Shown here in pieces: positions 670 through 33,872 of a DNA stretch of 35,569 bases. Each line of letters starts with the position of its first letter. Positions within the stretch are counted from its first letter, which is position 1. A program made the translations under genes and the position numbers. Origin of the DNA: Deltaproteobacteria bacterium (lineage in GTDB: Bacteria > Desulfobacterota > DSM-4660 > Desulfatiglandales > HGW-15); assembly GCA_016932235.1 (NCBI GenBank), contig JAFGDF010000293.1, positions 1-35,569 on the forward strand, read 5' to 3'. The notes beneath the pieces are model-generated. The model had not been told where the DNA came from, did no database searches, and saw only the letters and a list, made by a program, of their open reading frames with translations.

Positions 670-1089
670 TTAAATAGTTCGGACTGGTATTTTCTTAACA
701 CGCTCTCGGGCAGTAGCCGTCTTGGGAAGCCTCACCCTTAGGACACCATCCTTAAAAGAAGCATCCACCTTATCTGATTCCACCTCGCATGGAATGTAAA
801 AACTCCTTTCCCAGGCATCGGCTTGATATTCCGAAGATATGTCAACACGCACAGGCAATTGACCTTGATGTCTTCTTTTGGGAACTAATTCCTTCACCTT
901 ATCGGACAGGTTTTTTACCTCCTTGGTGAGCTCTTCGGCAGACTCACGCATATCTTCTCCCGCCCCCTTGAGCTTCTCCTTGACTTTTCCGGTGAGTGCT
1001 GAAACTTCCTCTTTCAGGTTATCTATAGCCTCTTTTATCTCCTTACTTGCTTCATCCAGCTTTTCCTTCGCTTTCTCGGATACGATCAT
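670..1089 (-). CDS. Core-deleted Hsp20 with N-terminal coiled coil
   Basis: A 139-residue protein. Residues 1-70 are a Lys/Glu-rich amphipathic helix, probably coiled coil. Residues 77-83 (QLPVRVD) resemble the N-terminal arm of some bacterial small heat-shock proteins. Residues 92-123 (AWERSFYIPCEV, then KDGVLRVRLPK) are the last strands of an alpha-crystallin domain, and KKIPV near the end is the C-terminal I-x-I/V oligomerisation motif. The first half of the alpha-crystallin domain, including the usual AELPG-type segment and the L9-type loop, is absent, so about 90 residues seem to be missing from the middle. The start is supported by AAAGGAGGG about 5 bases upstream of ATG. It is third in a leftward Hsp20 series. 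It could be a functional variant or a decaying gene; the reading frame is open across the presumed junction near residues 89-93. Confidence 0.75.
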   Translation of the reverse strand: MIVSEKAKEKLDEASKEIKEAIDNLKEEVSALTGKVKEKLKGAGEDMRESAEELTKEVKNLSDKVKELVPKRRHQGQLPVRVDISSEYQADAWERSFYIPCEVESDKVDASFKDGVLRVRLPKTATARERVKKIPVRTI

Positions 1090-1151
1090 CTTTACCCTCC
1101 TTTACTACGAAAGGTCTCAGGTAGTCTTCCTCTTTCTGTGAGAGGTGAAAA

Positions 1152-1214
1152 CTCAGAGCGGCTTGATGAAAATGAGAAATCGATCAATCTGCTCATTAAG
1201 AAAGCCGCTCTGAG
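1152..1214 (-). terminator. Long perfect stem between hsp20 genes
   Basis: The arms CTCAGAGCGGCTT (1152-1164) and AAGCCGCTCTGAG (1202-1214) are perfectly complementary over 13 bp. The loop contains a smaller stem (AATGAG/CTCATT). It lies between the second and third leftward hsp20 genes. On the minus strand it is followed by a short TTTT, so it could terminate or attenuate transcription before the coiled-coil Hsp20 gene. It could also be an mRNA stabiliser or processing site. Confidence 0.55.
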
Positions 1215-1307
1215 AGTATGAATTCCACTGTTTTTCTCAGGTTTTCTCCTTTTGGTTGAATGGTAAAAAATAATTATCCATGAAAACCCATTGCGCAACG
1301 CTTTTCA

Positions 1308-1718
1308 TTACGAACTCTTAACAGCTATCTTGCGAGGCGTTGCGGCTTCAATCTTAGGAAGTTTCAACCGAAGGACTCCGTCATTCAATTCAGCATCTAT
1401 TTTAGCCTGGTCGATAACCTGTGACAGAGTAAACTGCCTGTAGTATTTACCTGTACGATATTCTCTGATTACATCCGTCTCACCGTCACCTTCAGGTGCC
1501 TGTATATCACCGTTAAGGGTAAGTAAATTCTCATGTATATCGATACTCAGGTCTTCCGCTTTTACACCGGGCATATCCGCCAGCAGGGTAATCTCTTTAT
1601 CGGTTTCGAAGATATCCACTGCCGGTGTAAAGACCAGCCCCGGCCTTGTCTGTTCGGCCGGCGTCGTCACTTCAGCTTTCTCTTTAGCCTGAAGGGCTTT
1701 GCTTTCCGTGTCAGCCAT
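1308..1718 (-). CDS. Small heat-shock protein, Hsp20/alpha-crystallin family
   Basis: A 136-residue ATP-independent holdase-type chaperone. The alpha-crystallin domain runs from FTPAVDIFETDKEITLLADMP through DGVLRLKLPK, and the C-terminal RKIAVKSS supplies the I-x-V motif. The family is cytoplasmic and forms oligomers that bind unfolding proteins. The ATG at 1718 is preferred over an in-frame TTG at 1724 because AAAGGAGGG sits 7 bases upstream of the ATG. It is preceded by another Hsp20 gene at 2214-1750 (31 bases away, same strand), so the two are very likely co-transcribed. The middle loop between strands (QAPEGDGETDVIREYRTGKYY) is short, placing it near the shorter class A-like bacterial Hsp20s. 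Confidence 0.93.
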   Translation of the reverse strand: MADTESKALQAKEKAEVTTPAEQTRPGLVFTPAVDIFETDKEITLLADMPGVKAEDLSIDIHENLLTLNGDIQAPEGDGETDVIREYRTGKYYRQFTLSQVIDQAKIDAELNDGVLRLKLPKIEAATPRKIAVKSS

Positions 1719-1749
1719 CTTCAATCCCTCCTTTCATATTCGATTTGTA

Positions 1750-2214
1750 TTATGACGTTTTAACATTAATTTGCTTGGGCTTGGACACTTCCGCCTTGGG
1801 TAGCGTCACCGTGAGCACGCCATCCGTACAGCGCGCCTCTACCTTGCCCGAATCAATTTGAGCCGGCAAACTTACAATCCGGCTGAATCTGCCCGCCTCC
1901 CTTTCCCTTCGGTGGTACTGGGCCTTATGGTCTTCAGCAGGAAGCTTTCTCTCACCGGAAATAGAGAGAGCATCCCCTGTAACAGAGATGTCTAGCTCCT
2001 TAGCCTTGAGCCCGGGCAGTTCAGCGCGGACATAGAAATTGTCCTTGTCCTCTGTTACATTCATCAGAGGAAACACGCCAGCTATGGACTGCCCAAAAAG
2101 GCCTCTTGAAAAGCCGCCGCTCAGCCAGTCCATCTGCCTTTTCATACGTTCCAGCTCCTCAAACGGACTTGTCCAGCCCCATGTGGGCCAATCAGTGGTT
2201 CTTCTCAATAACAT
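1750..2214 (-). CDS. Small heat-shock protein, Hsp20/alpha-crystallin family
   Basis: A 154-residue Hsp20. The N-terminal arm is hydrophobic and tryptophan-rich (WPTWGWTSPFEELERMKRQM), as in family members where it binds clients. The alpha-crystallin domain runs from about residue 49 (FPLMNVTEDKDNFYVRAELP) to DGVLTVTLPK, and PKQINVKTS at the end carries the I-x-V motif. The start is supported by AAGGAGGGATGTGTC before ATG. It is the first gene of the leftward hsp20 operon (this gene, 1718-1308, 1089-670). The 5' region contains the shared promoter/leader block at 2305-2402, which also precedes the htrA operon, suggesting common stress control. Confidence 0.94.
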   Translation of the reverse strand: MLLRRTTDWPTWGWTSPFEELERMKRQMDWLSGGFSRGLFGQSIAGVFPLMNVTEDKDNFYVRAELPGLKAKELDISVTGDALSISGERKLPAEDHKAQYHRREREAGRFSRIVSLPAQIDSGKVEARCTDGVLTVTLPKAEVSKPKQINVKTS

Positions 2215-2304
2215 GACACATCCCTCCTTTCATAAATAAATTTCTTCTCATATTTTTCGAATTAAAAAGCCCTAAGAACAGCATCCTAAAATCCGGAACC
2301 AGCG

Positions 2305-2402
2305 ACTTTGATCAACCATTTTCAGAGCTTTTCAAAAGGTCCGTCGATCGACGGGCCTTTTTATAAAATAGATAATTCGTATTTTGCGACTGTCAAGAGG
2401 GG
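2305..2402 (-). promoter_or_regulatory. Shared promoter/leader block, copy 1 (hsp20 operon)
   Basis: On the minus strand a TTGACA -35 (2396-2391) and a TATCTA -10 (2374-2369) are 16 bases apart, preceded by CCCCTC. Downstream, inside the predicted 5' UTR, are a stem around CGTCGATCGACG (2342-2353) and a 20-base block whose plus strand is TTTGATCAACCATTTTCAGA (2307-2326). The same three elements recur at 5307-5402 at nearly the same spacing, with 19 of 20 bases conserved in the last block. This points to a common regulator or a leader RNA element controlling two stress operons. No CIRCE (TTAGCACTC-N9-GAGTGCTAA) was found. Confidence 0.6.
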
Positions 2403-2447
2403 CTTAAAAAATATCCGCCTATGACGAATTGAACCGATTTTGTAATC

Positions 2448-2475
2448 TTGACAGAAAAAAATCTGTGATTATATT
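2448..2475 (+). promoter_or_regulatory. Sigma70-type promoter for rightward hsp20
   Basis: TTGACA (2448-2453) and TATATT (2470-2475) are separated by 16 bases and point toward the Hsp20 gene at 2593. The resulting leader would be about 110 bases. The remainder of the divergent gap (2215-2592) holds the leftward shared block and AT-rich sequence; no gene was seen in it. Confidence 0.5.
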
Positions 2476-2592
2476 ATTGCTAAATAAATACACAACATGC
2501 TGTAATTATTATGTTTATTTGTCAAATTTAGACATCATATCATTGGCGATAAACTTATCAGAGAACAATTATTTTCAAGGAGGTGATTCCTT

Positions 2593-3042
2593 ATGGCAGG
2601 ATTAATACCATGGAGCAATCGAGGAGAAGTGGACCGCTTCAGGGGGAATATCGACAGGCTCTTTGATGACTTTTTTGCCAGAAGTCCATTCGGCGGTTCC
2701 TTTGATAAGGGAGATTGGGTGCCGGCGGTGGATTTATCAGAAAACGATAAAGAGATTATCATCCATGCTGAGATCCCTGGCATAGAAGTAAAGGATATCG
2801 ATATCTCTTTGAACGGAAGAGTACTAAATATAAAGGGTGAGAGGAAGCAGGAAAAAGAAGAGAAAGAAAAAGATTATCATTGTATTGAGCGCAGATATGG
2901 GTCTTTCTCCAGGTCCTTTGAACTTCCGGCTGATGTCGATTTCAACAATGTTGAAGCCCGGTATAAGGATGGTGTACTTAAGCTTAATCTGCCTAAAACC
3001 AAAGAGCAGTCCATCAAAAAGATAGAAATAAAAACATCTTAA
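2593..3042 (+). CDS. Small heat-shock protein, Hsp20/alpha-crystallin family
   Basis: A 149-residue Hsp20 of the common LxPW-type (MAGLIPWSNRGEVDRFRGNI), with an N-terminal arm containing RLFDDFFA. A complete alpha-crystallin domain runs from WVPAVDLSENDKEIIIHAEIP to GVLKLNLPK, and KKIEIKTS carries the canonical I-x-I tail. The Lys/Glu-rich loop QEKEEKEKDYHCIERRYGSFSR is typical of the family. A perfect AAGGAGGTGA ribosome site lies 6 bases before the ATG, so high expression is likely. It is transcribed divergently from the leftward hsp20 operon and followed by a hairpin terminator, then the ftsH remnant on the same strand. Confidence 0.95.
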   Translation: MAGLIPWSNRGEVDRFRGNIDRLFDDFFARSPFGGSFDKGDWVPAVDLSENDKEIIIHAEIPGIEVKDIDISLNGRVLNIKGERKQEKEEKEKDYHCIERRYGSFSRSFELPADVDFNNVEARYKDGVLKLNLPKTKEQSIKKIEIKTS

Positions 3043-3070
3043 TAAATCAAGAGTAACAACATATGGAATA

Positions 3071-3100
3071 AAAGCGGACTTTATTCTATGTCCGCTTTTA
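3071..3100 (+). terminator. Hairpin terminator after hsp20
   Basis: AAAGCGGAC (3071-3079) pairs perfectly with GTCCGCTTT (3090-3098) around a 10-base loop and is followed by a short T-containing tail. It lies 29 bases after the Hsp20 stop and just before the ftsH remnant's ribosome site. The T-run is short, so termination may be partial. Confidence 0.55.
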
Positions 3101-3117
3101 TATACAAGGAGATGCCA

Positions 3118-3955
3118 GTGGAAAAACATCATAAATTTTCAGTGTGGTATGTCTTGCTGGGTATATGGATTGTCTTTATCATTCATAACTATCTGGCGGC
3201 TGCCTTTTCAATCCGTACAATCCCGTATAGTGAATTTGTAAAACTGTTAAAAGAAGAGAAAGTGGCGGAAATATCTATCGGCCAAAACGTCATTCAAGGC
3301 AGAATGATTGATGGAGAAACCGGAAAAGGAAACAGCGAACTTTTTAAGACCATAAGGGTTGATCCGGAAATATCAAAGCAACTTGAGGAATTTAACGTGA
3401 CCTTCAAAGGCCAAATGGAGTCCACTTTCATACGTGATCTATTCTCTTGGATCTTCCCTTAAAAAAATATCTATCATCCCCCGCGGCATTGCCGCCCTTG
3501 GTTATACCATACAGGTACCCACTGAAGATCGTTACCTCATGAGCAGAACCGAACTTCTTAATAGAATCGCCACCCTTCTTGGAGGAAGGGCGGCTGAAGA
3601 GATCATATTCGCTGACATTTCAACAGGTGCGCACAATGATTTGGCAAAAGCCACAGATACCGCCATAAGTATGGTCAAAGAATACGGAATGAGCGAAAAG
3701 GTCGGAAAGGTTTACTTCAGCAGGAGAAAAAAGACACCATACTCGGATCTCGGCCCGGAAGGGACAGTAGAATATAGTGATGCCACAGCAGAACTAATTG
3801 ACAGAGAGGTTCGAGAAATATTGCAGGAACAATATAAAAAGTCCATCTCTATTCTGGAAGAAAAGAAAGACATACTTAAAAAAGGAGCCCAATTGCTCTT
3901 GGAAAAAGAAAAGATCGAGGCCGAAGAGCTTAAAAAACTCATGAATGAGGCTTAA
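3118..3955 (+). pseudogene. ftsH: ftsH remnant: AAA+ and zinc-site core deleted, frame broken
   Basis: FtsH is a membrane-anchored AAA+ zinc metalloprotease of about 600-650 residues. The first part is intact: a GTG start at 3118 with AAGGAG 6 bases upstream, a transmembrane segment (VWYVLLGIWIVFIIHNYL), and the periplasmic domain ending in STFIRDLFSWIFP, where a TAA follows at about 3460. The sequence then continues directly, in another reading frame, with the later part of the M41 peptidase (KISIIPRGIAALGYTIQVP, LLGGRAAEEIIF, then TGAHNDLAKAT with the likely third zinc-ligand Asp) to the stop at 3955. The second transmembrane helix, Walker A/B, SRH and HEXXH are all missing, about 335 residues by comparison with E. 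coli FtsH. The junction is near 3459-3466. The locus cannot make an active FtsH. It is a deletion pseudogene unless the gap is an assembly collapse. Confidence 0.85.
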
Positions 3956-4070
3956 ATAAATATTCAAAACATAGTAAAAAGAATAGGGTAATACGGCACT
4001 TTATTATCTTTGGGTGAGGGCAAGCCCAAATTTATTTTTTGTAGTATTATTCTTGACATGCCTGTGATTA

Positions 4071-4125
4071 TTATGGCGGATGAGCGACATAAATCCACAT
4101 CATTTGTTAAAACCATCCGCCATAA
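4071..4125. repeat. 12-bp inverted repeat between convergent genes
   Basis: TTATGGCGGATG (4071-4082) and CATCCGCCATAA (4114-4125) are perfect complements separated by 31 bases. They lie in the 257-base gap between the convergent ftsH remnant and htrA-like gene. The position fits a bidirectional termination region, but no T-run adjoins either arm. Nothing else convincing was seen in 3956-4212. Confidence 0.4.
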
Positions 4126-4212
4126 AACAGGGCACAAATCTTCCTCTATAGTGAATCACCCATTTAAAATTCTTTTATTTAAGCTCTCTTTGCTTCTAAC
4201 CTGTTTGTAATA

Positions 4213-4860
4213 TCACATAACGAGTGTACTGCCATCCTGAACAAGCAGCAGCAAATTCTTCTCGCCTTTGAGAGCATCGAAAAATTCATGTACGTTCTTA
4301 ACGCCTTTTCTGTTTACTTCAAGGATCAGAACTCCAGGTTTCAGTCCAGAAAACTGAGCTGGTGTGCCCGGAACAACCTGTGAGATGATAACCCCTTCTT
4401 TAGCCGAATAGTCAAATTGACGTGCCATATCTTCAGTTAAACGGACCTTGATTTTATCCGCCTCGCCCACAACATGATGATTGGTAAGGATATAACCGTC
4501 CTCTGATATAATGAATCCCGACCCCATACCCATTTGCTTATATCTTCTCGGCTGCATATGGGGATACCGATAACCGAAAAATCGCCTGAAAAAATCGTCA
4601 TTAAAGAGGTCAAAGGGATTATTATACTGGAAGGGGCTGACTGACTGCCCCGCCTCAATTGTCTTTTCGACATTAATAAAGACAACGGTCGGCATCACTT
4701 TCTTGGCAATAGCGGTAAAAGCATTTGAACTTTTTTGAAGAGAAGCTAGCTCACCCGCATCCACTGATGCTTGAGCAAAAGGATTGATCATCGGGAAAAA
4801 AACGAGACTCAGAAAAGAAAATAAAATAAATATATCTAATATCTTACTTCTTCTCAACAT
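4213..4860 (-). CDS. htrA: HtrA/DegP-like protein lacking catalytic Asp, Ser and PDZ1
   Basis: A 215-residue protein; HtrA/Do proteases are usually 450-500. Residues 1-31 are a signal peptide (hydrophobic core, then PFAQA), so export to the periplasm is expected. Residues 44-140 are the start of the trypsin-like domain: the oligomerisation loop with NPFDLFNDDFFRRFFG, then GMGSGFIISEDGYILTNHHVV carrying the catalytic-type His129. At KVRLTEDMARQF (138-149) the sequence passes in frame into the second PDZ domain (EGVIISQVVPGTPAQFSGLKPG through LLLLVQDGS). The segments that hold catalytic Asp and the GNSGG Ser, plus PDZ1, are absent. The deletion probably joined two similar LT(D/E) coding segments. 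The start has good context and follows a coiled-coil gene by 16 bases. The product cannot be a serine protease; a binding or dominant-negative role, or decay, are the options. Confidence 0.85.
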   Translation of the reverse strand: MLRRSKILDIFILFSFLSLVFFPMINPFAQASVDAGELASLQKSSNAFTAIAKKVMPTVVFINVEKTIEAGQSVSPFQYNNPFDLFNDDFFRRFFGYRYPHMQPRRYKQMGMGSGFIISEDGYILTNHHVVGEADKIKVRLTEDMARQFDYSAKEGVIISQVVPGTPAQFSGLKPGVLILEVNRKGVKNVHEFFDALKGEKNLLLLVQDGSTLVM

Positions 4861-4876
4861 CCTTCATTCCTCCTCT

Positions 4877-5218
4877 TTATTCCGGGTTTCCATTTCTTTT
4901 TTTATTTTCCAGCTCTTTATTAAGGTTGCGATCAATATCAACCATCCGGGCTTCGCTTTTTGCGATATCTAATAAAAGATCCTTGATCCCCAGTTTCTCG
5001 GTTATATCGTCAAGTCTCTCCGCCGATATTTTCTCATAAACCGCATTTCCCAACTCAGCAAGCATTCTGGTAACCTGTGTTTCCAGTCTTGCTTTCTCAC
5101 GCCTAAGTCGAGTAAGTTCTATTCCTTCACCGGCCTTTTCAGTAATTACATGAACAGCAGACAAACCTGCGTCAAAGCCGGCTTCCATTCCTCTTTGTAT
5201 CCTATCCCATAGCTTCAT
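4877..5218 (-). CDS. Small coiled-coil protein, unknown function
   Basis: 113 residues, no signal peptide and no transmembrane helix. It is almost wholly helical and charged, with a likely coiled coil across residues 30-60 (GIELTRLRREKARLETQVTRMLAELGNAVYEKI) and another near the C-terminus (SEARMVDIDRNLNKELENKK). AAAGGAGGATAAGGAT precedes the ATG, giving a strong ribosome site. It is the first gene of a leftward two-gene operon with the htrA-like gene 16 bases downstream, and it is preceded by the second copy of the shared promoter/leader block, so it is probably stress-regulated. I do not recognise the family. It might be a partner or adaptor of the envelope protease whose remnant follows. 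Confidence 0.8.
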   Translation of the reverse strand: MKLWDRIQRGMEAGFDAGLSAVHVITEKAGEGIELTRLRREKARLETQVTRMLAELGNAVYEKISAERLDDITEKLGIKDLLLDIAKSEARMVDIDRNLNKELENKKRNGNPE

Positions 5219-5304
5219 ATCCTTATCCTCCTTTCATGCAATTTGTTAATGTTCTATCGAAAATAAATGATCTAACAATCAAACCCTGAAACCCTTCACT
5301 ATCA

Positions 5305-5402
5305 AGTTTGATCAACTATTTTCAGATCTTCTAAGATTCGTCGATCGATATCGATGTTTTTAAAAAAATAATTAATCCGAATCTTTTCCTTGTCAAGAGG
5401 GG
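5305..5402 (-). promoter_or_regulatory. Shared promoter/leader block, copy 2 (coiled-coil/htrA operon)
   Basis: On the minus strand CCCCTCTTGACA (5402-5391) and a TAATTA -10 (5374-5369) have the same 16-base spacing as copy 1. CGTCGATCG (5339-5347) and the 20-base block TTTGATCAACTATTTTCAGA (5307-5326) lie downstream in the predicted leader. Flanking bases are poorly conserved, so the kept elements are likely functional. The rest of the gap 5219-5545 contains only this block and the hairpin at 5440-5466. Confidence 0.6.
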
Positions 5403-5439
5403 TCATAAATTTTCCATACAGTGAATTTCTAAAACTGGG

Positions 5440-5545: not shown

Positions 5546-6802
5546 TCATTTTGAGGTCTCGCGCGGTTTGATCACATTTTCCAACAGTGGAAGGAGTTTT
5601 TCGTTGTAGATGTTGTCCCATGCGTAATTTCTTATGACCTTCCTGAACATTTTATGTGGTTCCAGTTTATCGGTAAAATGCAAAATCTTTTGCGCTATGC
5701 TTTCAGGCGTATCGGCCAGATCAAAAAAACAGACATCATCCCCTGCGATTTCTAAAAAAGGCGGAATTCTCGAGCAAACAATGGGCAGTTTGATCATGCC
5801 CGATTCCAGAAGGGGGATACCGAATCCTTCCTGCAGACTGGGCAGAAACAGGATATCTGAAATCAGGTAGAGATCACGTATGGTTATACGGTCGACCGAG
5901 AATGTTTCACCGCTTTTAAAGCTATACTCAGCCATAATAAGCACGTCATCCTCTATCTCCAGATCCGCGGCAAGGTTCTTCAATTCATTATAGTATTTCA
6001 GGCTTCTTGGTTCATGGGGATCATGGGCGCCTGTGATCAGGAGGCGGGCAGTAAGACCCATATCATGCAACGCCCGCGTGACCCGAATGGACAACTCCAT
6101 ATTTTTCCTCTTGTGGAGACGTGATGGCTGAACCATGAGAAATTCAGTCTCAAAGAGACGCTGTTCCTGAATAAGCCGGACCGTGCCGGGATCAAGCCGG
6201 AAAAACAGTATCGGATCAATCCCGTTGGGAATAACATGAAGATCTTTTCTCTCTCCGTAGAGGTCTGCGAACATTTCTTTGCGGCTTTCCGAAATCACCA
6301 CATAGTGGATACCCGCGTAGGCCCGCTTCAGGATATTCCAGGGGAAAAGATCCATGTGCTTTGGGTATTCCGGATAAAAATAAGGAGAGTCATGATTCCA
6401 ACTGATGATCGGAATAAGGCCTTCCTGACCGATTCGGTGCAGAGCGGCGCTGAGGGGCAAATTAAACGGCATGGTAAGCACATTATGCGCGATAAGAACA
6501 TCAAAATCTTTCAGGAAATCCAGCATAAGCTCATATATCCTGCTTGTAAGGCTTTCCATCTTATTGACCTTGCCCTCAAGACTCAATTTATGGGCATTCA
6601 GGACCTGCCTGTTGAGAGAGCCGATAAGAGGATTTATCTCAATGTCTATCTCTTCCGCGAAGTTTCCTCCGTCTCCGGCAAAGACCTTGACTTTATGATC
6701 ATACCGGCTTAGCAGTGAGGCATGCTGGCGCACGATCTCCTCAACACCACCCACTACCGGCGGGCATGAATAATGGAGCAGTGCAATGTTATATTTCGTC
6801 AT
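5546..6802 (-). CDS. GT4-type glycosyltransferase
   Basis: A 418-residue GT-B fold glycosyltransferase. The N-terminal domain starts with NIALLHYSCPPVVGGVEEIVRQHASLL, the glycine-rich acceptor-side signature of GT4 enzymes. The C-terminal nucleotide-sugar domain has PSRLHKRKNMELSIRV near residue 230 and the E-x7-E motif in FLPSLQEGFGIPLLES near residue 330. It is cytosolic or peripheral at the membrane. Its ATG overlaps the stop of the upstream glycosyltransferase by four bases (ATGA), so the two are translationally coupled and probably act in sequence on one glycan. Sugar donor and acceptor cannot be read from the sequence. The gene lies inside the region bracketed by the fold-back elements. 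Confidence 0.9.
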   Translation of the reverse strand: MTKYNIALLHYSCPPVVGGVEEIVRQHASLLSRYDHKVKVFAGDGGNFAEEIDIEINPLIGSLNRQVLNAHKLSLEGKVNKMESLTSRIYELMLDFLKDFDVLIAHNVLTMPFNLPLSAALHRIGQEGLIPIISWNHDSPYFYPEYPKHMDLFPWNILKRAYAGIHYVVISESRKEMFADLYGERKDLHVIPNGIDPILFFRLDPGTVRLIQEQRLFETEFLMVQPSRLHKRKNMELSIRVTRALHDMGLTARLLITGAHDPHEPRSLKYYNELKNLAADLEIEDDVLIMAEYSFKSGETFSVDRITIRDLYLISDILFLPSLQEGFGIPLLESGMIKLPIVCSRIPPFLEIAGDDVCFFDLADTPESIAQKILHFTDKLEPHKMFRKVIRNYAWDNIYNEKLLPLLENVIKPRETSK

Positions 6803-8085
6803 GGCTCTCCGGCAGACAGGATTTTCGACATATTGACAAGATGCAGGAGCCGGCTCTCCAGTACCTCGTATGAAAAATACCGGTTGCCGAGCCGGTAATT
6901 CTCTTCGATCATCTGTTTCCGGCGCGCCTCGTCTGTCAAGACCTCAAATATTTTTTCAATGGTTTGACTGGTCACGAAACCCTCTATCGTGATAGTGTCG
7001 AAACCTTTCGGTTCTATATCGGCGATATAAATAGAATACCTGTTTACAACAATGGGTTTTTTATAATAGATAGACTCCAGGAAGGCATTGCCGAAGCCCT
7101 CGTATCCTGAAGGATAACAGACAAGATCGGCACATCGGTACACATCGCCTATTGTGTATTTTTTTTCATTACAGTTATTATAATCCCCTTCAGGGCCCAC
7201 CAGTTGTTCGATGGAAACCAGTTTTACACCGAGTCTTTGAGCGTATTCCTGGACCCGCTGGCTGTAAATATCCCCTTCATCATCGGCCGAATGGGATAGT
7301 ACAAGAACAGGGTTTTCGAGTTCCATGAGATTGATGATCTCAAGGCTTCTCTCGACCCATTTTCTGGGAACGATCCTGGTGGGTTGAAGGATGAAGAGAT
7401 CCTCTTCCTTTAATCCGATCCTTTCCTTTATATCGCCTGAGCAAACATCTGATTGGGCTGGAGGATTGGCAAAGTCATGCACATTCGGGATTATGGTGTT
7501 GGAGATACCTTTTCGATGGCTCAGTTGTTGGCTTGCAATGGAATTGATGACTGCGTGCTGTATCGTGGGGAGATTGGGCGGAAAAGCCCAGGCAAGATAA
7601 TCCTCCACCGCGTTGACCAGGAATCTTTCCCTCTCCCAGGAGAAATCATGGTGGTGAGCTATGGCGCTGAAACCTGTCTCCGCGATGAACTCTGCCAGGG
7701 CGAGCCCAAGGGGGATATTCAATGGAATGGCCAGCGCGTTTTCGGGAATGATTAAATCAATACCGAACCGACGGACAAATTCATAGATTACGCCTTTAAG
7801 GTATTCCCGAAGATCATGTATCCTTTTGGTAATCTCTCTCGGTCGAACTCCCTTTCCATAGCAGTGGTCATGGATTTCCATGATATCCGGATTTTGAAAA
7901 TGGGCCTCTCCCACGAGCATGCATTGCTCGGCCGGACGGTCGTTTTCCCCTGATAAATAAAAGCAGCGATAACCATTTCTCTCTAGAACGCTCGCCCACT
8001 TTTCGATCTCCAGAGAAACGCCGTCAGTACCTGCGATTCTTGTCGATACAAATCCAATATTCTTAAACCGCTTGCCATGGCCCAA
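6799..8085 (-). CDS. GT4-type glycosyltransferase (first of a coupled pair)
   Basis: About 428 residues, GT-B fold. The N-terminus (NIGFVSTRIAGTDGVSLEIEKW) carries the GxxGVSxE-type acceptor motif. The C-terminal domain shows LQPTRIVPRKWVERSLEIINLM and the E-x7-E motif in CYPSGYEGFGNAFLESIYY. Start choice: GTG at 8094 overlaps the ribosome site GGAGGT, whereas an in-frame TTG at 8085 sits 7 bases after it, so TTG 8085 is preferred. The stop overlaps the next glycosyltransferase start. A possible leftward -35 (TTGACA, 8159-8154) lies upstream but without a good -10. It belongs to the same broad family as its neighbour, yet the two proteins are not close copies, which suggests two different transfer steps. 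Confidence 0.88.
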   Translation of the reverse strand: MGHGKRFKNIGFVSTRIAGTDGVSLEIEKWASVLERNGYRCFYLSGENDRPAEQCMLVGEAHFQNPDIMEIHDHCYGKGVRPREITKRIHDLREYLKGVIYEFVRRFGIDLIIPENALAIPLNIPLGLALAEFIAETGFSAIAHHHDFSWERERFLVNAVEDYLAWAFPPNLPTIQHAVINSIASQQLSHRKGISNTIIPNVHDFANPPAQSDVCSGDIKERIGLKEEDLFILQPTRIVPRKWVERSLEIINLMELENPVLVLSHSADDEGDIYSQRVQEYAQRLGVKLVSIEQLVGPEGDYNNCNEKKYTIGDVYRCADLVCYPSGYEGFGNAFLESIYYKKPIVVNRYSIYIADIEPKGFDTITIEGFVTSQTIEKIFEVLTDEARRKQMIEENYRLGNRYFSYEVLESRLLHLVNMSKILSAGEP

Positions 8086-8224
8086 AAGAATCACCTCCGT
8101 TTCTAAAATTTGTAATCCTCGTTACTATGGCACTTACAGGACTTAACAAATTTTGTCAATAATGCCATCAACTCTTCACAATCTCTTTTAAGAGAATAAG
8201 GAACCATGCATAATTGATTATCCC

Positions 8225-16306: not shown

Positions 16307-17806
16307 TCATGACTTTTTTCTATTGGGCCGGAGCCCTAACCAGTAAAATGAAAAAATGGCCAGGAAAAACAGAGCTAGCGCTACCGGCCGAGTCAACACC
16401 ATCATGAAATTTCCGTCGATAATGTTAAGAGATTGGGACAGTGACAGTTCGAAACGTTCGCCCAGGAAAAAAGCAATCACAAGCACGATAGGGGAATAAC
16501 CAAACGCGTTCATTAAATATCCCAGGACGCCAAAAAAGAACATGGCTCCCACGCCGAACAAACCGCCGGTAGTTATGTAAACACCGACAATACAGAGAAT
16601 CAAGGCTGCTGTAAAAATAAATGATTCTGGCGCCCTGATAACTCGTGCCCATACACGCAGCCCAAAGAGGCCAATGAAAAGATTTGCCACATTTGCCATT
16701 AAAAAGGAACCAAAGATACCGTAAATCAGCCGGCCCTGTTCATGGAAAAGCAGCGGGCCGGGTTGAACCCCATGTATCATCAGAGCTGTTATGATCATTG
16801 CTGCCGCGGCATTTCCAGGTATCCCCAGGGTCAGCATCGGAATGCAATTGGCCCCGCAGACAGAGCTGTTGGCCGATTCAGTTGCGGCAATCCCGTGAAT
16901 ATTCCCTTTTCCAAAACTGTCCGGGTCCTTGGACGTCTGTTTGACCATTCCATAAGTCATAAATGCTGCCGCGGAAGAATCCAGTCCCGGTATAGCCCCA
17001 AAAACAGAACCGACTATGAAGCCACGTAAAATGGTATACCGGCAGCTCCAGTACTCAGCCAAGCTGATTCTTCTATCCTCTTTTTTCTGGGTTTTAGGAA
17101 TCCTCACGGCAGGAACACTCTTTCCGCTTATCATGGACAGCCGGCGAAAAATTTCAGCCACCGCAAGCATCCCGAGAGCCACAGACACCAGATGAAATCC
17201 TGAGTACAGTTCCAACCATCCAAATATAAAGCGGGGCGTGCTGTTCTCCGGGTCCAGGCCCACGGTAGCGAAAAAGAGCCCCAGTGCGGCCGACATAATG
17301 CTCTTCATCATGGAGTCTCCCACCAGCGCCGAAATAATGGAAAAGGCAAAAATCATTAATGCCAGTATTTCAATGGGGCCCATTTTCAGTGCCACCGCGG
17401 CAATCAGAGGGGATACTGTTATAAGGAGCACATCACTGGCCGCATCTCCAGTGACGGACGCATAGAGCGCCATCTTTAACGCCTTTTCAGGTTTTCCGTT
17501 CTGCGTCATCGGGTACCCGTCAAGTGTCGTGGCAGCGGCATCCGGTGATCCGGGGGTGTTTATCAATATGGACGGAATCGCGCCACCAAAAAGCCCTCCT
17601 TTATTGATTCCAACCAGAAAGGCAATCGCTGTCAGAGAATTAATCCCAAAGGTAAATGGAATGGCAACAGCCATAGCGGCTACCGGACCAATCCCCGGCA
17701 TTGCTCCTATGAACTGGCCGAAAGCAATACCCATCAACACAAAACAAAAATTATAAAAGGTCACGGCATCAGAGAAGCCGGAAAGAATCACTCCAATATC
17801 AATCAT
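16307..17806 (-). CDS. tctA: Tripartite tricarboxylate transporter, large membrane subunit TctA
   Basis: 499 residues and about 12 transmembrane helices. The two family signature regions are present: GAMPGIGPVAAMAVAIPFTF with GAIPSILINTPGSPDAAATT, and the later repeat GAIPGLDSSAAAFMTYGM with CGANCIPMLTLGIPGNAAAA. TctA forms the solute channel in the inner membrane and is driven by ion gradients. It is the last gene of the leftward cluster, 15 bases after tctB. The TTT family carries citrate and other carboxylates, terephthalate-type aromatics or sulfonated compounds, so a specific substrate cannot be named from this protein alone. Confidence 0.96.
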   Translation of the reverse strand: MIDIGVILSGFSDAVTFYNFCFVLMGIAFGQFIGAMPGIGPVAAMAVAIPFTFGINSLTAIAFLVGINKGGLFGGAIPSILINTPGSPDAAATTLDGYPMTQNGKPEKALKMALYASVTGDAASDVLLITVSPLIAAVALKMGPIEILALMIFAFSIISALVGDSMMKSIMSAALGLFFATVGLDPENSTPRFIFGWLELYSGFHLVSVALGMLAVAEIFRRLSMISGKSVPAVRIPKTQKKEDRRISLAEYWSCRYTILRGFIVGSVFGAIPGLDSSAAAFMTYGMVKQTSKDPDSFGKGNIHGIAATESANSSVCGANCIPMLTLGIPGNAAAAMIITALMIHGVQPGPLLFHEQGRLIYGIFGSFLMANVANLFIGLFGLRVWARVIRAPESFIFTAALILCIVGVYITTGGLFGVGAMFFFGVLGYLMNAFGYSPIVLVIAFFLGERFELSLSQSLNIIDGNFMMVLTRPVALALFFLAIFSFYWLGLRPNRKKS

Positions 17807-17821
17807 AGGGTGTATCCTCTT

Positions 17822-18250
17822 TCAAGGAAGTGGCGTATCCAGCAGAAATTCAATGCAGAACCACATAGAAAACGGCAGCCCGATAACTCCCAGGCTTAGC
17901 CAGAGCACGCGGTGTTCTTTAACCATGATCATGATGGCCAGTATCAAAGGAGGCGCAGTATAAACAAATCCGATTAGTTTCATCACATAAAGGCCCACAC
18001 AGGCGACCAAAAAAAACAAACCCATGCGAAGGGACAATTTAACGTCAAGCTCCGCGTTTCCGGCAGGAAGAACAAAATGTATCAATCCGGCCAGGATAAT
18101 GATAACAGATGTAATCCTCGGCAGGGTCGTCGGGTTTAACCAGCCAAAATCCAGGGCGGCTTCAGTTTGAGAAGGGATAATCCAGAACATCAGGACAGCG
18201 CCCATAACGGCAAAGACCAGTCCTGAAATGCGATTGAGAGTCATGTTCAA
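17822..18250 (-). CDS. tctB: Tripartite tricarboxylate transporter, small membrane subunit TctB
   Basis: 142 residues with four hydrophobic helices: ISGLVFAVMGAVLMFWIIP, PRITSVIIILAGLIHFVL, LGLYVMKLIGFVYTAPPLI-like and a C-terminal LGVIGLPFSMWFCIEFLLDTPLP. The length, four-helix layout and C-terminal F(x)6-LLxTPLP ending match TctB. Position confirms it: it lies directly between the TctC/sulfotransferase-like genes and tctA. Its start follows the sulfotransferase-like gene by 69 bases. It should pair with TctA in the inner membrane. Confidence 0.92.
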   Translation of the reverse strand: MNMTLNRISGLVFAVMGAVLMFWIIPSQTEAALDFGWLNPTTLPRITSVIIILAGLIHFVLPAGNAELDVKLSLRMGLFFLVACVGLYVMKLIGFVYTAPPLILAIMIMVKEHRVLWLSLGVIGLPFSMWFCIEFLLDTPLP

Positions 18251-18319
18251 TATCCTCTTCCTGTGAATGAGATGCTTATGTTGGTCTGATAACCGGCAAG
18301 ACCTCTCTATCTATTTCAT

Positions 18320-19612
18320 TCATTTCTTTTCATCCTTCCGGGGAATGCGGAAGGTTGTGATGTCAGGCGGAATTACAGGGATTTCAGACCTTGGGGTTCC
18401 TTCAGGCACCCAGTCATAATCAATGGGCTGGGCCCTGAAAACATAATTGCTGCGACTACCCCCACTCTCAACATCATGGTCGGCCCACTGTCCGAAGATC
18501 GGATTCACATATTCCCAGACAATCTCCCCCTCAGGTGTGATCTGAAACATCCGGCCGTTCATTCCTTCACAGATCAGGGTATTGCCATTCGGCAGCCGCC
18601 TGGCGTTGCTGATAAATGAACTGAAAAAATTCCAGATCGGCAGCCCGTTTTTAGATGCATCATACTGCCATATGATCTCTTTTGCCACCGGATCCACCTC
18701 CAGGACACGGGAACCGGGAAACATATTAAGGTAAATAGGCGGAAACCCTGCAGCGCCCTGGTTATCGAAAATCAGGATATTCCCCTCTCCGGGCCGTCCT
18801 CTCGGAATCATATGGGCATCGTGCTGACCGGAAATGGAATCCACGGGCCGCGGGACCTTGCCGGAAAATGAAACCAGGGAATGATCATAAGAGGCAGGGT
18901 ATTCGGGGCCCATACGCCAGACGATTTTCCCTGATTTTTTTTCGATGATGGCAATAAACGATCCTTCGCGGGAGTCAATTATGATATTGTCAGGATGGAA
19001 CCGCGTATCACCGGCATCAAACCATTTATTCGGTCCCATAGGGGCCATATCGTTCAATACAAACAGGCTGGACCGGGGCCGCATCTTTCTGCTGAACAGC
19101 AGATCCTTCTTTTGACCCGTAAAGCCTAATTCTTCGATGTGCTCCGAGGAAATCCATTGCCATACAATCCTGCCTTCAGTATCAACCTCATAGATCGCCT
19201 GATCGCTTAACTTTATTTCCGCATTTTCCAGAACAGGACTTTCAAGGAAAGCCACAAGCAGGACATTACCGTTGGCCAGGGGGGCCAGGTCGTGGTTCTG
19301 CCTGGCCTGACCCCCGGGTGCCTGTTTGCCCCATTCCCAGGCAATATGCCCATCCCAATCCACTTTTAGCAGGGTTTCGCATGAATATATCTCCGGCTCT
19401 TTATGACACAGGATCTGGCCCTTTTTTCCGTTGTTCAGTATAGGATCGATCATCTCAACCGGAAAACCGGTATAGTTATAAACATGGCGGATTTCCCCGG
19501 TCATATCGATCAGGTATGATCTCCCGTCCCGTCCGTCATAGAGGATAAAACTGTTATGGCACCTGTCAGGATAATAGACTGTCGTACCCGTTGGAAAAAC
19601 GGAATAAGGCAT
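18320..19612 (-). CDS. Arylsulfotransferase (ASST)-like beta-propeller protein
   Basis: 430 residues. Repeated propeller blades have the form GxIxWEW/xP-NGN: GHIAWEWGKQAPGG, NHDLAPLANGNVLL, GRIVWQWISSEH, SGKIVWRMGPEYP, GQHDAHMIPRG with NILIFDNQGAAG, and NARRLPNGNTLICEGMNGR followed by GEIVWEY. The HD-containing blades (NHDLAPL, QHDAHM) and the FDNQG segment match ASST/Arylsulfotran_2 proteins, which transfer sulfate between phenols through an active-site His. No signal peptide is visible, whereas classical AssT is periplasmic. It starts 12 bases after the tctC stop and is followed by tctB, so it splits the usual tctC-tctB-tctA order. Whether it moves sulfate or is a PQQ-like propeller with another role is open. 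Confidence 0.82.
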   Translation of the reverse strand: MPYSVFPTGTTVYYPDRCHNSFILYDGRDGRSYLIDMTGEIRHVYNYTGFPVEMIDPILNNGKKGQILCHKEPEIYSCETLLKVDWDGHIAWEWGKQAPGGQARQNHDLAPLANGNVLLVAFLESPVLENAEIKLSDQAIYEVDTEGRIVWQWISSEHIEELGFTGQKKDLLFSRKMRPRSSLFVLNDMAPMGPNKWFDAGDTRFHPDNIIIDSREGSFIAIIEKKSGKIVWRMGPEYPASYDHSLVSFSGKVPRPVDSISGQHDAHMIPRGRPGEGNILIFDNQGAAGFPPIYLNMFPGSRVLEVDPVAKEIIWQYDASKNGLPIWNFFSSFISNARRLPNGNTLICEGMNGRMFQITPEGEIVWEYVNPIFGQWADHDVESGGSRSNYVFRAQPIDYDWVPEGTPRSEIPVIPPDITTFRIPRKDEKK

Positions 19613-19624
19613 CGTGTTACCCTT

Positions 19625-20590
19625 TTACTGTTTTACTTCCTTGCCCGCGTCAATCAGGAATTTAGTATCAATTTGCCCTTGCTTAAGCATCTCAAAGGTG
19701 CCTTCCGGTCCAAGATTGTTCGGCAGGACCTTGAAGGTATTCCAGATAGCCTCTTTCAACTCGGCTGAATTGATTGCATCGTCAAACACTTTTGCCAGTG
19801 TTGCTTTTACATCAGCCGGCAATCCTTTGGGCGCTGCAATAAAATAATAGGGTTCAATATAATAATTAAAACCGTCTTCCATGATGGTTTTTACATCAGG
19901 CGCATAAGAGACCCTTTTTTTGCTATAAATCCCTATCATCTTCAGTTCGCCGGTTTCAAGATATTTAACGTGTTCACCGGAAAGACAGGCCACAATTATA
20001 TGCCCTCCAAGCAGATTCTGGATCTGTTCCGCTCCACTCTGATGTGCGATCTGTTTGAATTTCGCGCCGGTATCGTTGCTCACGGCATTCAAAATCATTT
20101 GCTGAACATTTGAATCGTATCCTACCGCTACGGATCCTTTGGCCTTGGCATAATCCAAAAATTCCATAAAATTATTAAAAGGGGCGTCTCCTTTGGCGAC
20201 GAAGGCATTCTCCGAAGATGCCATAGTGCCGATATAATCAAAACTGTCGATTTTAAACGGTACGGTATCTCCCCGGAGGCCCAGTGTCACGAAAACAGGC
20301 ACATTTACACCCACGCCAAGTATCATTCCATCCGGCTTTTCCCTCATCAGGTTGGATAACATGGTCACGCCGCCACCACCGGGTCTATTTTCAACCGCGA
20401 TATTCCATCCGGTTTGTTTTTCAATAATGGCTGCAGTCAGCCGTGTGGTGACATCCGTGGACCCGCCGGCATCAAATCCGACCCGAATTTTAATGGCGCC
20501 TTTGGGCGCCCAGTCCTGGGCAAAAACTGAACCCGGCAAAATCACTATACAGGCCATTGCAAATGCGATTAAAACATTTCTTATTTTCAT
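19625..20590 (-). CDS. tctC: TTT-family periplasmic substrate-binding protein TctC
   Basis: 321 residues. Residues 1-25 are a signal peptide (VLIAFAMACIVILPGSVFA, cleavage after FAQ or nearby). The mature start WAPKGAIKIRVGFDAGGSTDVTTRL and VENRPGGGGVTMLSNLMREKPDG are diagnostic of the TctC/Bug fold, in which the two loops bind a carboxylate. In the periplasm it would hand the substrate to TctAB. An AGGGGGG ribosome site precedes the ATG. The gap upstream (20591-20850, 260 bases) between this gene and the ferredoxin shows no strong promoter, so it may be in one operon with the flavoprotein and ferredoxin genes or have a weak promoter of its own. Confidence 0.95.
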   Translation of the reverse strand: MKIRNVLIAFAMACIVILPGSVFAQDWAPKGAIKIRVGFDAGGSTDVTTRLTAAIIEKQTGWNIAVENRPGGGGVTMLSNLMREKPDGMILGVGVNVPVFVTLGLRGDTVPFKIDSFDYIGTMASSENAFVAKGDAPFNNFMEFLDYAKAKGSVAVGYDSNVQQMILNAVSNDTGAKFKQIAHQSGAEQIQNLLGGHIIVACLSGEHVKYLETGELKMIGIYSKKRVSYAPDVKTIMEDGFNYYIEPYYFIAAPKGLPADVKATLAKVFDDAINSAELKEAIWNTFKVLPNNLGPEGTFEMLKQGQIDTKFLIDAGKEVKQ

Positions 20591-32654: not shown

Positions 32655-33872
32655 TCAGGCGAGAAAATCATTTAAGAGGTTTCTGACAATATTGCTGATT
32701 TCTTTGGACATTTCACCTTCGGGATACTTTGCGACAACGGGAACAAGTTCAACAGCACTTTTTCCCACCTGCCTGTGGGATGAGATTCCACCCAGAAACT
32801 TTACCTCCGTGGAGATAAACTTCCTGGAAACTTCCTGTATCTTTTTTACAACCTGAACGGTATCGATGCCTTCTGAAGCCTTGTTTATGACCAGATAAGG
32901 GTTAAAACCTGATATGGCGGCATCTATCAAAGGCAGGCTTAAGGGAAGATTTTTTTTGATCCCCTCTCTCAGTTCCTCGATTGTTTTAATACCCGACCCA
33001 TTTTGGGGTGTAATTGCCTCCATGATAAACCGTGCGAGCTTATTATCTTTCATTGTAGCGTATTTGGATTCGGCGCCAAAGAGCCTGTTTAATTTTCTGT
33101 ATAATGCGGCCTTAATGAAATGATAGGCACCCACGTAGGAAGCGGATTCACAGGTTGTCATGACAATCCCGTAATCTGCGGAGAGGAAAAAATCCAGGAT
33201 ATTATACGAAGTATCCCCTCCGAGGTCGATCAGAACACAATCAGCTTCGATAGTCTGCATTGCCTTTAACAGCTTCAGTTTCTGTGTGAACTGGATATTC
33301 GCGGACCCGAATTCAGAGCTGTCCCCGCCAATGAGCAGCGGCCCATATTTGGTTTTTGTCATGATTTCCGGTAAGGTCCGCGCTCTTTTCTTTAAAAAAT
33401 CATTGATATTTCTTTTAAGAATCGTTTTTTCACCAAGGTAGAGGTGAAGATTCGAACCCCCCAGGTCAAGATCGATGGCGACTGTTTTGAGCCCCCTTGA
33501 TGATAGAAAAACACTCAGATTGGAAGCGAATATACTCTTCCCCACACCACCCTTCGCACCCCCCACAGCGATGATCTTTCTTTTCCCTCTGAATGTGTTA
33601 TGAGGACATGGCAGCTCTTTTTTTAAATAGTTGTTTAAGACCTCGTAGGAATGGTTAACCCGCTGGAAAAGATAGGTTTTAAATTCCCTCGATCCGCGAG
33701 GGTGCAGATCAGGGTGACAGGTCTTGGCCTTTTTCCAATAAGCCCTTTTCACTGTTTTTAAATCTAATCCCTTGAGGAATTCATTGTTACTGATGAGTTC
33801 CGGTGGGAAGAGTCTGGAGCAGGCTATGCGGATTTTAGCAAGCTGTGCGTGGTTTAATTGATCAATCTGCAT
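32655..33872 (-). CDS. J-domain fused to MinD/ParA-type ATPase
   Basis: 405 residues. Residues about 30-85 form a J-domain-like segment: KTVKRAYWKKAKTCHPDLHP with the HPD motif at 53-55, then FQRVNHSYEVLNNYL. From residue 99 comes a MinD/ParA/FlhG-type P-loop ATPase: IIAVGGAKGGVGKSIFASNLS (deviant Walker A, KGGVGKS), VAIDLDLGGSNLHLYLG (switch I-type), and ADCVLIDLGGDTSYNILDFF (Walker B region). The HPD motif in DnaJ proteins stimulates Hsp70 ATPase. MinD-type ATPases position or assemble membrane and polar structures. The fusion suggests a chaperone-linked localisation factor. It is monocistronic, with a possible TATAAT upstream at 33958-33953. No flagellar or division genes are nearby, so its target is unknown. 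Confidence 0.88.
   Translation of the reverse strand: MQIDQLNHAQLAKIRIACSRLFPPELISNNEFLKGLDLKTVKRAYWKKAKTCHPDLHPRGSREFKTYLFQRVNHSYEVLNNYLKKELPCPHNTFRGKRKIIAVGGAKGGVGKSIFASNLSVFLSSRGLKTVAIDLDLGGSNLHLYLGEKTILKRNINDFLKKRARTLPEIMTKTKYGPLLIGGDSSEFGSANIQFTQKLKLLKAMQTIEADCVLIDLGGDTSYNILDFFLSADYGIVMTTCESASYVGAYHFIKAALYRKLNRLFGAESKYATMKDNKLARFIMEAITPQNGSGIKTIEELREGIKKNLPLSLPLIDAAISGFNPYLVINKASEGIDTVQVVKKIQEVSRKFISTEVKFLGGISSHRQVGKSAVELVPVVAKYPEGEMSKEISNIVRNLLNDFLA

Follow-up and report, generated by a model that had tools for sequence, protein, structure and literature searches.

The closest described systems are the tLST islands, in which genes for the small heat-shock protein sHSP20, FtsH and DegP are clustered. 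Passages of a review on these islands (PMC8290217) describe a truncated ftsH in tLST1, heat resistance of tLST1 comparable to that of tLST2 and, in many species, deletions or insertions that altered the island content. Genes for the same kinds of protein were clustered at positions 670–5218 of contig JAFGDF010000293.1, which was analysed as one 35,569-bp stretch (the window). Three of them, a coiled-coil/Hsp20 fusion gene, ftsH and an htrA/degP-like gene, retained both ends and had lost the core. The preliminary description of the window had claimed as much, and Pfam matches, alignments and motif positions bore it out; alignment likewise confirmed that the joints are in frame in the Hsp20 fusion and htrA genes and out of frame in ftsH. 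Recurrent and fairly recent decay of a dispensable accessory chaperone/protease cluster is considered the best reading of this locus, and a fairly probable one.

The truncated ftsH is a likeness to tLST1 as described in the same passages (PMC8290217), while the additional coiled-coil Hsp20 fusion sets the window apart from the tLST islands. A Pfam scan of 29 window proteins recognised none of ClpG/ClpK, YfdX, HdeD, Trx or KefB. In none of the 338 plasmid records matched did identity to the window FtsH part reach 60%, and tLST records were not singled out in this set. Judged by its gene content, the block is not a tLST; its partial loss of proteases has a precedent in the tLST ftsH truncation.

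The coiled-coil/Hsp20 fusion gene (670–1089, minus strand), delimited by Pfam and homolog alignment, encoded 139 residues, compared with 240–245 in most homologs among the matches listed. Residues 1–94 were joined in frame to about residue 199 onward of the full-length homolog P0002, with the loss of 105 codons (about 315 bp) at a joint near 799–808. Only positions 44–101 of the 102-position HSP20 Pfam profile were covered; profile and alignment both indicated an incomplete alpha-crystallin domain, a region of low model confidence. Among the 36 Hsp20-fusion homologs listed, three, including that of the window, had lost at least 50 internal residues with both ends matched; P0033 (49-residue gap, poor N-terminal match) and P0023 (25-residue gap) were not counted.

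The ftsH gene was represented by two remnants on the plus strand. The N-terminal remnant (3088–3462) contained the FtsH_ext part (PF06480, 2.5e-10) and ended at a stop codon made by the joint (about 3456–3461), where the reading frame switched. The preliminary description had correctly seen a remnant here and had placed its start at 3118, 30 bp inside the N-terminal part. The C-terminal remnant (3434–3955), in a different frame, encoded an M41 domain without the HExGH motif. Compared with 25 of 66 full-length FtsH proteins, 320–324 residues (about 321 codons, about 965 bp) had been lost. The N and C parts were 64 and 73% identical to an FtsH from the same order (L122), in which GPPGTGKT, DELDA and HELGH all fall within the part lost from the window. 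The first two are taken here to be Walker-type motifs and the third to be the zinc motif. In contrast to L122 and its relatives, the window copy had no AAA+ ATPase domain with Walker motifs and no M41 zinc site: the HExGH motif lies at L122 residue 439, whereas the window C part aligns from residue 456 and its Peptidase_M41 match begins at profile position 30.

The htrA/degP-like gene (4213–4860, minus strand) had lost 264 codons (about 790 bp) relative to a 486-residue relative, at an in-frame joint near 4434–4442. It carried a further lesion that the preliminary description did not contain: a frameshift just before the C-terminus (about 4228–4236), which left the conserved final stretch in another frame. 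TNHHV was retained, and DVALI and GNSGGP were gone; these are presumably the three catalytic stretches, of which the His stretch would be kept and the other two lost. Trypsin_2 was covered at positions 1–28 of 144 only, i.e., the His-Asp-Ser protease domain was incomplete, and the PDZ match started at profile position 23, with its C-terminal end changed by the frameshift. The DegP/HtrA gene of G081 (L149, L167) was similar in its N part (80% DNA identity over 347 bp) and shared the neighbours hsp3, hsp2 and a small gene with the window, but in the window gene the first PDZ region was gone, as were two catalytic stretches, and the C-terminus was no longer the usual one. Over the three genes, the missing lengths given in the preliminary description (270, 1000 and 700 bp) are replaced by measured values of about 315, 965 and 790 bp.

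Relatives were surveyed in 85 genomes of one order, the probable host order. These included G259, which carried a gene matching the ABC1-type kinase of the window at 70% identity along its full length. With a full-length fusion protein as query, 13 of the 85 genomes carried the Hsp20 fusion, and 11 of the 13 genes were undamaged by span and frame; in a sample drawn more widely, 198 genomes from the G001 phylum, the fusion gene was present in two, both members of this order. FtsH of this type (at least 68% identity) was found in 25 genomes, including that of the query, and was full length in 20, genomic and query spans differing by no more than three residues. It was cut by contig ends in four (G258, G305, G309, G313). 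Stops flagged at the ftsH of G081 (three) and G305 (one) lay upstream of the gene start. The closest HtrA type (at least 60% identity) was found in seven genomes and was full length in six. Damaged copies in the window, with intact orthologs in relatives, are as expected of pseudogenes by internal deletion, which the three genes would then be. The comparison with close relatives called for in the preliminary description thus showed full-length genes in most cases, and the window's short forms of the Hsp20 fusion, FtsH and HtrA occurred in none of the relatives found among the 85 genomes. For the relatives found, short forms inherited by descent were accordingly rejected.

Damage to the same block was found in three relatives. 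In G277, independently of the window, hsp2 had an out-of-frame internal deletion and the fusion gene an 18-residue in-frame one near its C-terminus; the two genes lie in L123 (367–709 and 818–1501; G277:C116). As in the window, two neighbouring stress genes were internally deleted with both ends kept; the deletions were smaller (about 18–20 residues), the breakpoints were different and the contig was short (3690 bp). In G223 (L102/L125), a single internal stop interrupted an otherwise full-length coiled-coil Hsp20 fusion. In G285, an ftsH of this type was frameshifted near residue 505, with the remainder readable in another frame (L190, G285:C200, about 1972–3782, minus strand). The colinear hsp3-hsp2-fusion block was complete in 8 of the 13 carriers; it was damaged and cut in G277, cut by a contig end in G270 and rearranged in G178, and hsp2 and hsp3 were absent from the stretch read in G300 and G223. 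Because G277 had two deleted neighbours, G223 a nonsense codon and G285 a frameshifted ftsH, a dispensable locus is the best supported form of the deletion-prone locus that the preliminary description had offered as one option.

The joints were examined by comparing 30 nucleotides on each side with the N and C sides of a relative (10 comparisons). Left of the joints, identity was 0.57–0.83 to the relative's N side and 0.20–0.37 to the sequence preceding its C side; right of the joints, it was 0.60–0.83 to the C side and 0.13–0.33 to the N-side continuation. The switch in identity was sharp at each joint, and no long direct repeat flanked any of them. From the relatives' codons, the FtsH joint would share at most about 5 bp, and for the HtrA and Hsp20 joints a shared stretch of a few to about 10 bases would be possible. 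Homology this short is typical of illegitimate recombination. With no long repeats at their flanks, the joints are better explained by short-homology deletion than by repeat collapse, which is unlikely. A k-mer collapse, the usual form of the assembly collapse named in the preliminary description, was rejected, as the sequences beside the joints are not repeats. Relocation of the lost middles within the window was rejected as well: across the window, the lost Hsp20 core significantly matched the adjoining intact hsp20 genes, the lost HtrA core matched the retained htrA remnant itself, and the lost FtsH core gave no significant match elsewhere.

As a control, 20 other window proteins were compared with Pfam, a coarse measure to which small indels are invisible, and 19 of them covered most of a profile; the exception was a glycosyltransferase (6799–8094), in which the second half of its profiles alone was covered. 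As far as this control reaches, damage was limited to the 670–5218 cluster.

Rates were compared as lineage-specific changes (window : relative) for each outgroup. For FtsH, the counts against L122 were 36:15 (outgroups L171 and L180) and 32:19 (L168), and those against L168 were 42:16 (L171), 38:15 (L180) and 32:27 (L122). In a tree, the FtsH branch of the window was about twice that of L122 (0.302 vs 0.146). The Hsp20 fusion gave 11:13 (L116), 10:12 (L117) and 12:6 (L119) against L115. HtrA gave 10:16 (L169), 9:12 (L170) and 7:12 (L173) against L167, and 10:15 (L167), 15:12 (L170) and 9:6 (L173) against L169. Counts for the intact genes were 11:7, 5:9 and 7:6 for hsp2 (against L115), 14:13, 17:16 and 14:10 for hsp3, and 20:14 and 11:6 for hsp4 (against L176). 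The FtsH remnant alone looks relaxed, evolving faster than its relatives. Synonymous sites were near saturation for many pairs, so the deletions cannot be dated. AlphaFold models of the two in-frame products, built from shallow alignments and with no intact control modelled, had mean predicted local distance difference test (pLDDT) values of 57.0 and 64.9, and confidence was low in both except in the coiled coil.

Taken together with the lesions in relatives, these data point to decay of an accessory block for protein quality control, made up of small heat-shock proteins, FtsH and HtrA, in what is probably a Desulfobacterota host. The block would have lost its selective value in this lineage, with decay still under way. 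The Hsp20-fusion, ftsH and htrA genes would each have lost their core to a separate internal deletion (about 0.3, 1 and 0.8 kb, respectively), probably between sequences of little or no homology by illegitimate recombination or replication slippage, and an additional small indel may have shifted the end of htrA. With three simple hsp20 genes intact, the holding-chaperone part may still work, and both proteases would be dead. A literature search on internal-deletion pseudogenes yielded nothing useful.

Several observations weigh against decay as the explanation. The FtsH rate result varied with the outgroup, as in the 32:19 obtained with L168, and the tree came with no support values for its branches. 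The Hsp20-fusion and HtrA remnants were unaccelerated (11:13 and 10:16) and had no internal stop codon; the deletions must then have happened recently, or constraint still acts on the in-frame products. The organism is represented by a single assembly, and that the contig reflects the genome is presumed here. The damaged relatives are themselves mostly metagenome contigs or drafts. The region also assembles badly in relatives: ftsH was split in its core between contigs in G258 (C312/C204; L175, L176) and G313 (C319/C35; L183, L184), and in the htrA of G313 about 37 residues were missing around a run of 10 N (L185 1819–1828, G313:C182), either a scaffold gap or a mask.

The same assembly problems lend some weight to an artefact, in which the assembly dropped the conserved cores, these being common to co-occurring strains, and misjoined contig ends, e.g., by scaffolding with a gap closed later. 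The missing parts are indeed conserved cores, and 4 of the 13 fusion genes in relatives were no more than 550 bp away from the end of their contig. Internally deleted homologs were present in other metagenome contigs, both for Hsp20 (P0025, P0026) and for HtrA (P0051, P0064, P0095). The HtrA homologs came from a set of 120 of 439 matches with a length limit that favours short forms, so no deletion rate can be derived from them; among five HtrA homologs with gap alignments, P0072 (two smaller gaps, weak C-terminal match) was left out. According to one paper (PMC11479545), metagenomic assemblies are prone to breaks around antibiotic resistance genes, which are likened there to other conserved regions. 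Against an artefact stand the non-repetitive joints, which k-mer collapse would not create, the 35,569-bp sequence without a single N, the three intact hsp20 genes between the damaged ones and the separate small frameshift in htrA, though sequencing error could explain a frameshift too. An assembly artefact is considered unlikely on this balance, and is the most serious competitor to decay.

A property of the locus itself could also drive repeated internal deletions and strike several neighbours per genome. Two genomes, those of the window and G277, had at least two internally deleted neighbours. On a reconstructed layout, three deletions as large as these would each be confined to a single gene with a probability of about 0.04; three within-gene deletions side by side are only mildly unusual, a milder verdict than the plain "unusual" of the preliminary description. 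Breakpoints differed between the two genomes, however, the window's joints were without repeats, most fusion genes (11 of 13) and most FtsH genes of this type (20 of 25) were undamaged, and relaxed selection accounts for the same clustering. A deletion-prone block is therefore improbable, in keeping with the preference for a dispensable one. It is decidedly improbable that internal deletions, often sparing both gene ends, recur in the accessory chaperone/protease blocks of this order, with some in-frame products (the coiled-coil Hsp20 tail and an HtrA left with its second PDZ alone) persisting as protease-dead or chaperone-modulating mini-proteins.

Selection for the short products, i.e., a joined Hsp20 (coiled coil and C-terminal tail) and a joined HtrA (signal part and second PDZ) acting as dead-end partners or regulators, is very improbable: two joints are in frame, the Hsp20 and HtrA remnants are unaccelerated and P0051 (220 residues, contig 4261, from another metagenome) lacks 272 HtrA residues, nearly the same part as in the window and in frame, but at least two of three joints would be in frame by chance with a probability of about 0.26 (7/27), ftsH is joined out of frame, a second lesion is present in htrA, the models are of low confidence and P0051 came from a short-form query, which favours such matches.

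The remaining genes of the cluster were intact. Two hsp20 genes adjoined the fusion gene on the minus strand: hsp2 (1308–1724), with a full HSP20 domain and 70–84% identity to relatives, and hsp3 (1750–2214), identified by Pfam and comparison with relatives. A third, hsp4 (2593–3042, plus strand), lay directly upstream of ftsH, an order also found in G258 (L176). A small gene in front of htrA (4877–5218, minus strand) had no Pfam match above the cut-off and was 76% identical to a gene of the G081 block. The upstream region of the hsp20 operon (2215–2420, minus strand) and the related one of the small gene and htrA (5219–5420, minus strand) had a module in common, consisting of a TTGACA box, a GATCGAC palindrome and a conserved leader with a predicted hairpin. 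The same module preceded hsp3 in six relatives and was partly deleted in G259. Folding energies of the leaders were no better than those of shuffled sequences (z of -0.45 and 0.13), and covariation in the hairpin was slight (3 of 37 pairs). The module could possibly be an RNA thermometer or the target of a common regulator. An Rfam scan of the window gave no matches at the gathering threshold, and a tRNA search of the window found none. Elsewhere in the window, both on the minus strand, were a gene for a protein with a DnaJ-like domain and a ParA/MinD-like ATPase (32655–33872) and genes for the tripartite tricarboxylate transporter components TctA, TctB and TctC (16307–20590), with an arylsulfotransferase-like gene among them.

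The interest of the locus comes mainly from the parallel damage in G277 and from the possible mini-proteins. It also calls for caution, as a short HtrA, FtsH or Hsp20 recorded from a metagenome may represent a gene remnant or a joined gap and not a new protein. If real, the window would represent a stress-tolerance block caught losing its proteases while its small chaperones stay, in a lineage seen as metagenome sequence only, and would provide a case in which module-by-module decay can be tested, in parallel with the reported loss of ftsH in the tLST.

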